Below, one piece after another: positions 2,938-6,035 of a stretch of DNA of 32,766 nt. Below the pieces are notes generated by a model, which did no database searches, had not been told where the DNA came from, and was given only the letters and a program-made list of their open reading frames with translations. The stretch covers positions 1-32,766 of the forward strand of contig CASFVA010000055.1 in NCBI GenBank assembly GCA_949298075.1, read 5' to 3'. Source of the stretch: an uncultured Lentisphaeria bacterium (lineage in GTDB: Bacteria > Verrucomicrobiota > Lentisphaeria > Victivallales > Victivallaceae). How positions within the stretch are numbered: position 1 is the first letter of the stretch; every line of letters begins with the position of its first letter. The translations under genes and the position numbers were made by a program.

Positions 2938-2966
2938 AATATATACTTAAAATGGAGATTTATCAA
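2938..2966 (-). promoter_or_regulatory. Promoter of mraY
   Basis: On the minus strand TTGATA (2961-2966) and TATATT (2938-2943) are separated by exactly 17 nt. The expected start of transcription is about 32 nt before the mraY ATG. The -35 box lies inside the 3' end of the upstream integrase-fragment gene. Confidence 0.7.
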
Positions 2967-3216
2967 TACCGCCGGGCACTTTTCTTTGAGTTCCGAACTG
3001 GAAAAGCCGGGCCAGGTGGGCGCAGGCCCGCTGATGAAGCCGGGCCGCCCGGTTTTTAGCCATGAGCTCGGCTTCCATGGCACGCGCGGCGGAGAGATCA
3101 GAAGTACCGAGATTGACGGTTGTCGTGGCGTATTTCAACGTACCGTCCGGTCTGGCGACCACCGTCCGGAAATAGGCGTGCCAGAAACCTGATTTGCCGC
3201 GCTTGCGCAGGGCCAT
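2947..3216 (-). CDS. Tyrosine recombinase N-terminal fragment (89 aa)
   Basis: This small protein opens with MALRKRGKSGFWHAYFRT and continues with a GTLKYATTTVNLGTSD segment, two short strands and then an Ala/Arg-rich helix (about 45-72). That is the layout of the N-terminal arm DNA-binding domain of phage-type integrases. No core-binding or catalytic (R-H-R-Y) domain follows, so it is either a truncated integrase or a stand-alone DNA-binding relic. The ATG lies 4 nt after the stop of the upstream membrane-protein gene. Its GGGGAG ribosome site overlaps that gene's last codons, so translation is probably coupled. The family call rests on pattern recognition only. Confidence 0.55.
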   Translation of the reverse strand: MALRKRGKSGFWHAYFRTVVARPDGTLKYATTTVNLGTSDLSAARAMEAELMAKNRAARLHQRACAHLARLFQFGTQRKVPGGIDKSPF

Positions 3217-3220
3217 GTTT

Positions 3221-4438
3221 TCACTCCCCGGCAGACGGTCCGGACGACGGGCGGCCGGACCGGTGCAGCAGCACCACCCACGGCGCCGCCAGCAGCGGAA
3301 TGGTGATGAGGTTGAAAACCGCCCAGATTTCCCGGGCGCCGAGATGAATCGGAAAGACTGGATTGTACAGAATCGCCAGCAGAATCAGCGGCAGTTTCAG
3401 CCCGGCCGGAATCCGCCAGCCGACCGGACCGGCCAGCGCCGCGCAGGTGGTAATGCGCAGGAATACATAAAAGCCGGTACTCCATTTGCCTGACAGCGCC
3501 ATTGCCAGCAGCACCATGGACATCACAGTCAGGCCAAGTAAGATTTTCTGAAGCTCGCTGAAGGCGCCAAACGCCGCCCGGATCCGCCCAGCAAGAGTCG
3601 CAATCTTATGAATATTGGAAAACAACAAAACCAACAGGCAGACCACTGCAACCACAACCCATAACGACACAATAAATACAAGCCGATATTCGGTCTGCTT
3701 CGCCTTTTTCTGTTCGGCGCGCTGCTGTTCGAGCCGGGCCTGTTTCCGCTGTTCGAGTTTGCGCAGTTCAAGGTAGGCTTCGCCTCCGGTGAGCTGCCGC
3801 CCGAAAACCTGCCGGGTGATCTCTCCGAAGGCGGCTCTGATTTCCCGGCTGGGCCGGTGAAACTGGTTGGAAAACCATTTCACCGCCACCTCGGTCATCA
3901 CCGCTTCGGCCAGTTCATTGTCATCACTGCCGTCAAGGCCGTAGGCCCGGGCATGCGCCACCCGGTTCTCCGGCCGGATCAGGCTCAGCGGCTCACTCAG
4001 CAGCGCATTGCGCATGCTCCGACTGTTGTTTCCGCCCAGAAAAGCAAGTTCGCTGGCCGGTCTCACGGCCCCGGGTATCGCAAACCGGTATTTAATGGGG
4101 CGCGGCTCTCCCGGCGGCGGAGCCGGATCTTCCGCCGCGGCCGGGAGAGCCGGAGCCGGATCAGCGGCGGCCGGCAGTTCAAGGCGGGGAACCGCCGCCG
4201 GGAGACCGGGATCCGGAAACCGGAACGACCTGGATAAAATAATTTCATCAGGAATGACGGGGACTTGAATTTGGGACGATGGTTCCTGCTGGCCGCGACT
4301 TACCGCATATACGGGGAGAACAGCCAACAAAAACACCCCCACCATCATCCAGACGGCCAGCAGAATGATTATGCCGGCGTTGATTTTTTCACGGGCTTGA
4401 AAGTTGTTGTTGTCTTCAGCGCGGCATTCTTCTTTCAT
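3221..4438 (-). CDS. Membrane protein of unknown function with proline/alanine-rich linker
   Basis: Unrecognised 405-residue protein. A charged N-terminus and one membrane segment (about 20-45) are followed by a Pro/Ala-rich stretch with repeated PAAA/PAPAL/PAPP units (about 65-120). Next come a soluble helical region and a strongly charged Arg/Lys/Gln/Glu segment likely to form a coiled coil (about 220-245). Then come a membrane hairpin and three or four closely spaced C-terminal membrane segments. The last part (FYVFLRITTC, then LYNPVFPIHLG near the end) resembles small membrane proteins of the DUF6804 type, which suggests a fusion. The start at 4438 is preferred because GGAGG lies 5 nt before it; a GTG at 4462 has no such site. 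The first 16 codons overlap the left copy of a 34-bp direct repeat. It is coupled to the 89-residue integrase fragment downstream. Confidence 0.6.
   Translation of the reverse strand: MKEECRAEDNNNFQAREKINAGIIILLAVWMMVGVFLLAVLPVYAVSRGQQEPSSQIQVPVIPDEIILSRSFRFPDPGLPAAVPRLELPAAADPAPALPAAAEDPAPPPGEPRPIKYRFAIPGAVRPASELAFLGGNNSRSMRNALLSEPLSLIRPENRVAHARAYGLDGSDDNELAEAVMTEVAVKWFSNQFHRPSREIRAAFGEITRQVFGRQLTGGEAYLELRKLEQRKQARLEQQRAEQKKAKQTEYRLVFIVSLWVVVAVVCLLVLLFSNIHKIATLAGRIRAAFGAFSELQKILLGLTVMSMVLLAMALSGKWSTGFYVFLRITTCAALAGPVGWRIPAGLKLPLILLAILYNPVFPIHLGAREIWAVFNLITIPLLAAPWVVLLHRSGRPSSGPSAGE
4394..4427 (+). repeat. 34-bp direct repeat, left copy
   Basis: The sequence from GGCTTGAAAG to CGGCAT matches 5447-5480 at 32 of 34 positions, in the same orientation. 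This copy lies inside the beginning of the 405-residue membrane-protein gene. The two copies bracket the AT-rich cassette. The similarity ends sharply on both sides. Confidence 0.75.
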
Positions 4439-4508
4439 TTTCTCCTCCGGCTTGAACTCCACATTGGATATGGCGCGAATAACGCGGCTTCTTGTTTCAG
4501 CTGGAATA

Positions 4509-4889
4509 TCAATACCGCCTCCTTAACATTTCTATATGCTCCAGCTCGCATATCGCTTCAAAATCACCAGCGGCGGCACGATCTCTAAGAAACAAATACG
4601 GATTCATTCCTGGGCATATAAAAAAACTACACAGCAAAAAGTATGCTATCGAATAAACAACGAACCATATTGAACCGAAACGAATCAGGAATATTCCTGC
4701 GATGATAAAATTTGTAAACATGCATTGCGAGCAAAGCCAACTTTGCATTTCTGCCCCAATATTCCATCGAATGGCATTATAATATTTTGCATAAGCTTTA
4801 TCGACCTTGCGATAAATGAAATAAGGCATAATAATCGCGAACATATTATAAATCACAATAGGAACAGATATGCATAGCCATATAATCAT
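4509..4889 (-). CDS. Hypothetical membrane protein of the AT-rich cassette (126 aa)
   Basis: Unrecognised protein with a long hydrophobic N-terminal segment (about 2-26), a basic loop (YRKVDKAYAKYY), and two hydrophobic segments (about 54-72 and 74-95). A soluble, charged C-terminal tail of about 30 residues follows. The likely topology is three membrane spans with a cytoplasmic tail. The ATG at 4889 is chosen; an in-frame TTG at 4892 is directly before it, and no clear ribosome site is visible. It begins 7 nt after the stop of the 47-residue hydrophobic protein, so it is probably translated from the same message as the XRE regulator upstream. Base composition is much more AT-rich than the neighbouring genes, which suggests transfer. 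Confidence 0.6.
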   Translation of the reverse strand: MIIWLCISVPIVIYNMFAIIMPYFIYRKVDKAYAKYYNAIRWNIGAEMQSWLCSQCMFTNFIIAGIFLIRFGSIWFVVYSIAYFLLCSFFICPGMNPYLFLRDRAAAGDFEAICELEHIEMLRRRY

Positions 4890-4896
4890 CAATGTG

Positions 4897-5040
4897 TCAA
4901 GATTTTCTTTTTTTTAAGCAGACACACAAAACAATAAACGTCACATTAAGCAAAATAGTAAATAAAAATCGCAATGGTCCGAAAAGTAGAAAAAGAAGTG
5001 TCAAAGGGAAAATAAAAATTGACCGCAAAATACTTTTCAT
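4897..5040 (-). CDS. Small hydrophobic protein of the AT-rich cassette (47 aa)
   Basis: A short gene that is easily missed. It reads MKSILRSIFIFPLTLLFLLF at the start, continues hydrophobic to residue 42, and ends in KKRKS. It is a one- or two-span membrane peptide with basic residues at both ends. Its ATG (5038-5040) overlaps the TGA of the XRE regulator (5037-5039) in an ATGA arrangement, and the next gene starts a few bases after its stop. This tight packing is the main evidence that it is real. Function is unknown. Small hydrophobic peptides beside an XRE regulator can be toxins, holin-like proteins or membrane subunits, but nothing here decides. Confidence 0.6.
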   Translation of the reverse strand: MKSILRSIFIFPLTLLFLLFGPLRFLFTILLNVTFIVLCVCLKKRKS

Positions 5041-5375
5041 TTCTTCAGTACTTTCATGACTTTGATTTTCTCTTCAGCGGTCAAAGTCTCGTCGTCAAGT
5101 ATTTTGTTTATGACATCATCATTGGCAAATGATACTCCGCCTCGAATCTGAATTGCATTGTCGCCTGCAAACTGAGCACCGTTCAAACTGATTTCCGCTT
5201 TTGGAAACAACTTAAACAGCGTCTCTAACTTCATAGATTCCACCTTGCGTTTGCCTGATAAAAGATTGTTTATATACGGATTGGTTACCTTAGCCCGGTC
5301 TGCTATCTCTTGCTGGGTAGTGCCACTTCGCCATTCCCGCATCAATTCTTCTCTAATTTTTTCGTAGATGTTCAT
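5037..5375 (-). CDS. XRE/Cro-CI family transcriptional regulator
   Basis: A 112-residue protein with a helix-turn-helix at about 20-50: TTQQEIADRAKVTNPYINN is followed by LLSGKRKVESMKLETLFKLFP. This is the usual XRE/CI fold, in which the second helix reads DNA. The C-terminal half (FANDDVINKILDDETLTAEE, then a lysine-rich helix) is short and probably serves for dimerisation. The ATG at 5375 follows GGGAGG with 11 nt spacing; a GTG at 5387 is a weaker alternative. It is the first gene of the AT-rich cassette and overlaps the next gene by 4 bp. Two TTTATTAAA boxes upstream are plausible operators, so it may control its own cassette. Confidence 0.8.
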   Translation of the reverse strand: MNIYEKIREELMREWRSGTTQQEIADRAKVTNPYINNLLSGKRKVESMKLETLFKLFPKAEISLNGAQFAGDNAIQIRGGVSFANDDVINKILDDETLTAEEKIKVMKVLKK

Positions 5376-5411
5376 GCCATATATCACCTCCCTTCCAGTC
5401 TGAATTTATCA

Positions 5412-5443
5412 CTTTTATTAAAAAAACAAGTTCTTTATTAAAT
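5412..5443 (-). promoter_or_regulatory. Tandem boxes upstream of the XRE regulator
   Basis: TTTATTAAA occurs twice in the same orientation at 5414-5422 and 5434-5442, 20 bp apart, which is two helical turns. They lie in the 70-bp AT-rich leader of the XRE gene, where a TGATAAATT extended -10-like element is also visible on the minus strand. Operator function is inferred from position. Confidence 0.35.
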
Positions 5444-5446
5444 CCA

Positions 5447-5480
5447 GGCTTGAAAGTTGTTATTGTCTTCAGCACGGCAT
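5447..5480 (+). repeat. 34-bp direct repeat, right copy
   Basis: Matches 4394-4427 at 32 of 34 positions. This copy is the exact right-hand border of the AT-rich DNA and falls within the gene remnant at 5447-5673. The remnant's reading frame through this copy differs by one from the frame used through the left copy. Confidence 0.75.
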
Positions 5481-5673
5481 CTTTGACCACCGGATCAATG
5501 TCCGGCTTTACAGCGATTCCATTCCCGTAACGGCAGAGGACCGGCGCCGGATCCATGACATCAAACTTGTCCTCGGCCGACAGATTGGATTTCAAAATCT
5601 TATCGTTGATGTTTTCAGCGATCTGACTGCGTTTTAACAAAAACCGCTGATTCCAGTTGCGACCATCAGGATA
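5447..5673 (-). pseudogene. Gene remnant cut by the AT-rich cassette
   Basis: Reading leftwards from 5673, just after a TGA, an open frame gives DGRNWNQRFLLKRSQ, then a KILKSNLSAEDKFDVMDP segment, then VVKDAVLKTITTFKP. It then enters the AT-rich DNA and stops by chance at 5353. There is no good start codon (only a TTG at 5640), and the composition changes abruptly at 5447. The same frame through the left repeat copy would continue FKPVKKSTPA and stop. I read this as the internal or C-terminal piece of an older gene, interrupted when the cassette arrived. The family was not recognised. Confidence 0.4.
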
Positions 5674-5735
5674 TCACGGTATGGCATTCTTCCCGGATTA
5701 TCGCGGACCGGCAACCGCCGCCGGGACGGACATGC

Positions 5736-6035
5736 TCATTCCCCGGGATAGCAGACCAGATTGAACCGGTTGTCCCATCGGATGTTCTCATAGACATCGG
5801 TGGCGGGCTTATCCAGCAAAACCCGCTGATAATCGGCATCCTTGCACAGCATCAGCACGGGCAGCATGAAGCACGGTCCGATAATCGGAGTGTAGAACGC
5901 CGCCGCCGTCCAGCCCGATTCTGCATATTTCCGATCCACCTCTTTGAAAGTGGTTTCGCAACCGTCACATATGCAACCGGTGAAAGTAACCGTCGCCAGT
6001 GTTGCCGCCAGCACAGCAGGGATGAGCTTTTTCAT
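5736..6035 (-). CDS. Small putative lipoprotein (99 aa)
   Basis: A short exported protein beginning MKKLIPAVLAATLATVTFTGC. The lysines, the hydrophobic core and the FTGC box (C21) suggest a lipoprotein signal, although phenylalanine at the -3 position is less usual than leucine. After the cysteine come a CDGCETT segment, a hydrophobic stretch (about 45-60, with two prolines) and a polar C-terminus ending near NLVCYPGE. The start is set by the signal peptide; the ribosome site (GGCGGG) is weak. The open frame extends 52 codons upstream, but that extension overlaps the glycosyltransferase gene and does not look like protein. It lies 82 nt downstream of the family 2 glycosyltransferase. Function unknown. 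Confidence 0.6.
   Translation of the reverse strand: MKKLIPAVLAATLATVTFTGCICDGCETTFKEVDRKYAESGWTAAAFYTPIIGPCFMLPVLMLCKDADYQRVLLDKPATDVYENIRWDNRFNLVCYPGE

Follow-up and report, generated by a model that had tools for sequence, protein, structure and literature searches.

Genes and composition of the locus

The window, by which we mean the whole stretch of 32,766 nucleotides analysed, is the complete contig C55 of a 2.3-Mb Lentisphaeria-related MAG in 75 contigs, and its genus was sampled with 34 genomes. It carries an intact XRE regulator gene, two short frames, a membrane protein gene with a DUF6804 domain and a truncated tyrosine integrase gene, lying in and beside an AT-rich island (Table 1). 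The GC content of the island is 37.3%, against 60.1% for the whole contig, and the lowest value found elsewhere was 0.534 (n = 2,903 sliding windows, each 1,019 nt long and moved in steps of 10, outside 4100-5800). The composition of the island is therefore not a matter of chance, and the original prediction of tightly packed frames in DNA richer in AT than its surroundings of about 60% GC was correct in coordinates, spacing and composition.

Table 1 Features of the locus (positions in the window).
Feature	Position	Strand	Basis or remark
Truncated tyrosine integrase gene	2947-3216	-	Family match over about 73 codons from the start, remainder missing
Membrane protein gene, 413 aa, C-terminal DUF6804 domain (3290-3529)	3221-4462	-	PF20619
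Left copy of 34-bp direct repeat	4394-4427	.	32/34 identical to 5447-5480
AT-rich island	4428-5446	.	GC 0.373
126/127-aa frame, C-terminal part of broken membrane protein gene	4509-4889/4892	-	L034 homology
47-aa frame, probable N-terminal part of broken gene	4897-5040	-	Position only
A8 run (coding strand), point where the frames part	4908-4915	-	The contig has a single other A8/T8 run
Intact XRE (CI-like) regulator gene, 112 aa	5037-5375	-	Pfam HTH_3, E 6.8e-6
Scar of other XRE genes: L039-like C-terminus, then L032_1/L040-like C-terminus	5447-5640	-	
Right copy of 34-bp direct repeat, within XRE scar	5447-5480	.	32/34 identical to 4394-4427

The 34-bp direct repeat that flanks the island, not mentioned in the original prediction, is the sole same-strand pair of 34-mers that similar in the contig. 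By eye, one minus-strand frame of the left copy, which lies before the DUF6804 gene, resembles the XRE end present in the right copy. Neither Rfam families at the gathering threshold nor tRNAs were found; promoter-like sites numbered 6 (3.0 +/- 1.9 expected) and terminator-like sites 2 (4.3 +/- 2.1 expected).

The integrase remnant was recognized by profile, with 2998-3216 matching integrase positions 1-73 of 374 (E 2e-32); nothing else in the MAG reached E 1e-15. It resembles the integrase of locus L034 in G172, a genome of the same family as the host of the window (80% over 71 aa, E 2e-37), and the L034 integrase itself matches PHROG 1 (E 4.5e-32). The integrase of a prophage lysogeny module is thus represented in the window by this remnant. 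It is cut after about 73 residues, and short scars of two other XRE C-termini lie at 5447-5640; we read the locus as a decayed prophage remnant next to an MraY-like gene. Phage structural or packaging genes were not noticed among the listed frames of the window, most of which were read without a profile search.

The MraY-like gene (PF00953; the name MraY is our own reading) adjoins the remnant. Between the remnant and a glycosyltransferase gene lies a small lipoprotein-like frame of 99 aa (5736-6035, minus strand), which matched nothing in Pfam or NCBIfam. An empty chromosomal site was sought by comparing the MraY-like and glycosyltransferase genes across the genus; in G030, the closest relative for both, they lie on separate contigs. 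Upstream neighbours of the MraY-like gene differ among L133-L135, and in L132 antisense frames alone could be made out, so that no empty site was obtained for comparison.

Two frames behind a phage-type regulator

The original prediction described a CI-like regulator followed by membrane proteins. The first element is a regulator of phage type, judging by its homologues and their neighbours. Its homologues are 76% identical in L032, 65% in L033 and 50-51% in L034, and an XRE-like protein (E <= 1e-6) occurs in 14/197 class genomes, that of the window included; the surroundings were read for eight of these loci and later also for further integrase loci. Among viral contigs, neither the XRE protein of the window nor its clade had a tblastn-confirmed match. 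In padloc, the regulator gave weak HTH matches (best E 0.0017), capH among them (E 0.0073).

The two frames downstream of the regulator had been read as separate genes, which comparison with L034 did not confirm. In the window, the 47-aa frame overlaps the XRE gene by 4 bp and is separated from the 126/127-aa frame by 7 nt (from its ATG) or 4 nt (from its TTG). In L034, one uninterrupted gene of 179 aa covers the same span, with the same 4-bp overlap with its XRE gene and a length of 540 nt, against 532 nt for both window frames combined. The 127-aa frame matches residues 70-168 of this membrane protein (38% over 101 aa, E 2e-18). Conversely, the L034 protein as a lone query finds the window locus (E 2.4e-11), its sole match at E 0.001 among 387 phylum genomes. 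A Shine-Dalgarno sequence is absent before the 127-aa frame and present for the XRE gene, whose ATG start sits 3' of GGAGGTGAT, and for the DUF6804 gene, likely to start at the ATG at 4438 behind GGAGGAG. The assignment of the 47-aa half is based on its position, because its residues do not align significantly with the N-terminus of the L034 protein (709/2000 shuffles score as high). A Kyte-Doolittle scan predicted two membrane segments in the 127-aa frame, one fewer than the three spans counted originally.

We conclude that a single gene, now broken, most probably accounts for both the 47- and the 127-aa frame. The idea of a free-standing 47-residue toxin was likewise not supported: no significant homologue of the frame was found (weak matches below cut-off, E 0.021 in Pfam and 0.35 in PHROGs), it stands where the L034 gene has its N-terminal part, and the frame after it lacks a Shine-Dalgarno sequence. 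A separate, conserved toxin gene with its own antitoxin was thus not recognized here, which corrects the otherwise plausible view that the AT-rich patch encodes a "tiny toxin".

Two readings would nevertheless keep the frames in use. In one, the locus is a complete three-gene unit, with a self-regulated XRE gene, a separate 47-residue membrane peptide acting as toxin or signal, and a membrane partner. Both frames are open, the 4-bp overlap with the XRE gene would permit coupled translation, and the absence of a significant alignment between the 47 residues and the N-terminus of the relative agrees with a distinct peptide; yet the single L034 gene across the same span, the lack of a Shine-Dalgarno sequence before the 127-aa frame and the lack of any 47-aa family match past the cut-off make this reading very improbable. 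In the other, the gene is split and still alive, slippage or phase variation at the A8 run yielding the full protein in some cells, which would be compatible with the prophage-module reading developed below. The frames do part at this run, one of only two of its kind in 32.8 kb, but breaks in the integrase and in a second, neighbouring XRE gene fit plain decay; the searches brought up no closer relative in which the run could be compared, and an assembly or sequencing error in the MAG is a possible cause of the split. We regard a living split gene as decidedly unlikely.

The split-gene family is small. The 127-aa query gave matches in 10/60 related genomes at E 0.1, the best beyond its own genome at E 0.0024, in a set that did not contain G172. 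A two-row profile (A1) found 5/197 class genomes at E 0.01, namely the window's own, G172 and three at E 0.003-0.005 whose matches hold internal stops. Among the genomes searched, the window and G172 are the only credible members, and no tblastn-confirmed match was found in viral contigs.

The interval between repressor and integrase in related loci

A check for co-occurrence elsewhere, which the original prediction had proposed, did not refute it: the genes recur together in L034, although the split-gene family turned up in no genome besides this one and that of the window. In L034, the integrase, a 115-aa DUF6804 protein, the 179-aa membrane protein and the XRE regulator follow one another in the same order as in the window, and the element carries a replication O-like gene on its divergent side (E 2e-13). 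In IMG/VR, seven matches to the integrase family came up, of which five were strong (E 1e-94 or better) and two weak; L043 is the contig of L040, and L044 and L045 have the same frames in their shared stretch. L044, a 31-kb contig, joins the module to phage genes: XRE, a 115-aa DUF6804 protein and the integrase are followed by genes for terminase small subunit (PHROG 606, E 3e-20), terminase large subunit and head-tail adaptor (PHROG 332, E 6e-112), the terminase-large gene being a candidate for which the terminase large subunit (PHROG 2, E 2e-24) ranks third, after PHROGs without known function. Divergent genes stand beside the repressor in L034 and L044; none was recognized beside the XRE gene of the window.

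We then considered the interval between the XRE and integrase genes, hereafter the slot. A profile scan of 33 sequences detected both genes in 11, the window and ten loci; the slot count refers to nine distinct loci, the window and L045, which repeats L044, being left out. The uncounted sequences had XRE only (L036, L037), neither gene (L069-L071) or integrase only (n = 17: L040-L043, L046-L048, L058-L061, L063-L068). In 9/9 distinct loci, one or more proteins predicted to be membrane-bound or secreted are encoded in the slot, and a membrane gene in this interval, as expected for superinfection exclusion, is found both there and in the window. A membrane or signal segment was predicted in 14/16 slot genes, against 7/62 ORFs within 3.5 kb on the divergent side (6/62 at a stricter threshold), the spans coming from a Kyte-Doolittle scan, the control ORFs possibly including non-genes and the loci being related by the manner of their finding. 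The GC content of the slot is lower than that of the integrase in 9/9 loci. These data show that, in temperate phages of Lentisphaeria-type hosts, the interval from repressor to integrase is a slot for varying membrane proteins.

Four of the integrase-only loci were inspected (L040, L042, L063, L064). L040 has an XRE gene missed by the profile, then a 6-span gene and the integrase; L042 runs from the contig edge through DUF6804 to the integrase; L064 has an HTH-like frame followed by a one-span zinc-ribbon-like protein. L063, an integrase locus with no detected XRE, falls outside the slot pattern, with a 137-aa frame without predicted span adjoining the integrase. DUF6804 is the slot type in the window, L034 and L044 (over the curated cut-off) and in L042 (by alignment); the L033 match was over the cut-off in one search and absent from the hmmscan listing. 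By eye, a second type ends in an FSKENY motif (L035, L039, L040): the membrane proteins encoded last before the integrase are of unequal length and share a C-terminal FSKENYxKT-like motif and the last span. Zinc-ribbon-like membrane proteins, also read by eye, occupy the slots of L038, L062 and L064.

The 413-aa protein of the window exceeds the cut-off of Pfam PF20619 (DUF6804), a family with no assigned function (E 3.1e-9 and 5.5e-10; 37.3 bits against a cut-off of 27), and matches its positional counterpart in L034 (37% over 101 aa, E 4e-25). Within the genus, matches to it were found in 2/34 genomes, its own and G002. At E 0.001, DUF6804 occurs in 11 of the 197 genomes of the class, 9 of them over the cut-off, with 12 matches in total, and in 0/14 control genomes. 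An integrase lies near 5/12 matches (the window, L033, L034, L149 and L141, where it is on the other strand), and none was detected by profile within about 1.5 kb of 6/12 (L138, L139, L140, L143, L144 and L147, the last below the cut-off); a further sub-cut-off match, L148, was left out of this tally. The seven IMG/VR loci with DUF6804 comprise the contigs of L042, L044 and L045 together with the new L153 and L154-L156, the latter three alike. Given this tally and the IMG/VR loci, the link between DUF6804 and lysogeny modules is partial; the family, so far without assigned function, thus gains a partial phage-lysogeny context. A search of the literature on the name DUF6804 returned no paper. 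Structure predictions were of low confidence, with a mean pLDDT of 56.1 for the L034 membrane protein and 61.7 for DUF6804.

Three further DUF6804 loci were read individually. L155 has a LexA/CI-like regulator frame within about 1.2 kb of the match (by eye). In L138 (G124, 1459-2756), an XRE gene, a 146-aa four-span protein and a 106-aa DUF6804 protein follow in tight order, in a fetched stretch without integrase. In L144 (G140, 1135-2285), an AT-rich gene for a seven-span DUF6804 protein of 259 aa directly precedes a HigA-like XRE gene (by eye), the pair sitting between GC-rich chromosomal genes.

Among 50,697 deposited phage records, none matched the L034 integrase or the window XRE (E limit 1e-5 each), the L034 179-aa protein (E 0.1) or the L044 DUF6804 protein (E 0.01). 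Since no deposited record matched and no paper on DUF6804 was found, the protein families are, as far as these sources go, undescribed; the architecture is already known.

Proposed function and its alternatives

Genes between integrase and repressor have been studied in phages of other hosts. In the Streptococcus thermophilus phage TP-J34, the order is int - ltp - orf3 - CI, with cro on the other strand, and Ltp is a superinfection-exclusion lipoprotein (PMC3952083). The resemblance to the window module, a gene for a small membrane-tethered protein between repressor and integrase on the repressor strand, is one of position; Ltp is a lipoprotein from a different host, and the window copy is decayed. 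The lactococcal Sie2009 and SieF7/2AB proteins (Tuc2009, LC3, TP901-1) were shown to protect against other phages; they are membrane-associated and likewise encoded by one or two genes between integrase and repressor, whereas same-slot genes of Dub35A, when expressed, conferred no resistance (PMC7693887). Here too the likeness is positional, the window families having several predicted spans, unlike lactococcal Sie. In lambda, rexAB are co-transcribed with cI. According to PMC6426596, lambda rexA-rexB and Sbash gp30-gp31 are lysogenically expressed genes that include a four-span membrane protein, and an abortive mechanism resembling lambda Rex was proposed for Sbash; the four-span proteins of Butters (PMC7542560) and Sbash (PMC6426596), expressed in lysogens, can take part in defence. 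The lambda and Sbash pairs combine a cytosolic partner with a membrane protein, unlike the window, where no cytosolic partner was recognized.

We propose that the locus is, with fair probability, a decayed temperate-phage lysogeny module with membrane exclusion cargo. The XRE gene would be the prophage's repressor-type regulator; behind it, toward the integrase, would have stood a membrane protein gene, now apparently split into the 47- and 127-aa frames, then the DUF6804 membrane gene and finally the integrase, now cut to about its first fifth. In an intact relative, the genes of the module would be expressed in the lysogen together with the repressor, and their products, lodged in the membrane, would most likely keep the DNA of other phages from entering or make their growth abort, which would be superinfection exclusion. 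Phage exclusion, one of several options offered by the original prediction, is supported as an option, homologues and neighbours placing the unit in a prophage lysogeny module. Slot proteins are candidates for new exclusion systems. Membership in a described defence or Sie family was not found with padloc or PHROGs: in padloc, the membrane frames of the window, the 413-aa protein and the 179-aa protein of L034 went unmatched and a different slot protein was matched weakly (E 0.016), and PHROGs at E 0.01 gave no match for the slot proteins of L034, L044 and L040. Counting against this explanation are the lack, in either membrane family, of a member with experimentally established function, these padloc results, the exceptional L063, the partial DUF6804-integrase link, the positional assignment of the N-terminal half of the split gene and the negative result for Dub35A.

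It is possible, though we doubt it, that the cargo of the lysogeny module has another job, altering the cell surface by lysogenic conversion or serving in stress or colonisation. Several types that seem unrelated to one another are found among the slot proteins, and a few begin, by eye, like zinc-ribbon proteins or lipoproteins; a single shared slot function is therefore not proven; their position and membrane character, on the other hand, agree with Sie genes that have been tested. An origin outside phages, as a chromosomal XRE-membrane operon acquired by phages later, would account for the XRE, 4-span and DUF6804 genes of L138, whose fetched stretch has no integrase, but in the window the integrase fragment and the repressor scars directly adjoin the module, and we consider such an origin extremely improbable. 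Returning to the favoured reading of a decayed lysogeny module, the scars also bear on how it was assembled. The XRE scar contains a 23-aa stretch at 61% to the L039 regulator (E 0.001) and stretches of 18-20 aa that match L032 and L040 at 75-89% (E 4e-5 to 5e-5), with E 2e-8 in pairwise comparison. Together with the 34-bp repeat, these repressor ends point to modular exchange. The simplest history would be that a resident repressor gene received an XRE-membrane module at its 3' end, which is now duplicated. Slots of L032, L033, L034 and L039 contained no counterpart of the 34-bp pair.

In a tree of the regulators, the window XRE groups with L032_2 and L033_1, with L062_1 on a long branch (support 96/99). 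A second XRE gene stands directly upstream in L032 and L033, and the XRE scar takes that place in the window, so that 3/3 short-branch members lie behind another XRE gene or its scar. For the long-branch member, L062, the profile detected no second XRE, which is weak evidence of absence because the profile fails to detect the L032_1/L040 type. One could picture stackable immunity cassettes, a phage acquiring, behind the repressor it already has, an XRE gene from elsewhere together with the membrane protein belonging to that gene; the window would then be a fossil of such an insertion, with the 34-bp duplicate of the repressor end bracketing the module and the broken membrane gene perhaps controlled by slippage as well. 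If this unlikely scheme were true, a lysogen would gain membrane exclusion and, through the added repressor, immunity to a second phage group in a single step. Between groups, the last 26 alignment columns of the XRE proteins are the most conserved (aa identity 0.58; HTH part 0.39, linker 0.26). The notion that XRE ends serve as recombination joints at the DNA level was dropped: residue by residue, codon identity at identical residues was not raised (K 85/146 vs 29/50; E 28/54 vs 25/52; L 23/88 vs 34/148; I 11/42 vs 26/82), leaving the scars of the window as its sole support.

L033 (5667-6858, G002) carries three XRE genes in tandem, followed by a membrane gene and the integrase, and L032 carries two; such tandems could be stacked immunity or leftovers of exchange. 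Tandem repeats also occur within slot genes, at L033:5338-5409 (21 nt), L032:5325-5447 (63 nt) and L039:6318-6407 (45 nt), with units divisible by three, suggesting variation in the length of the cargo proteins.
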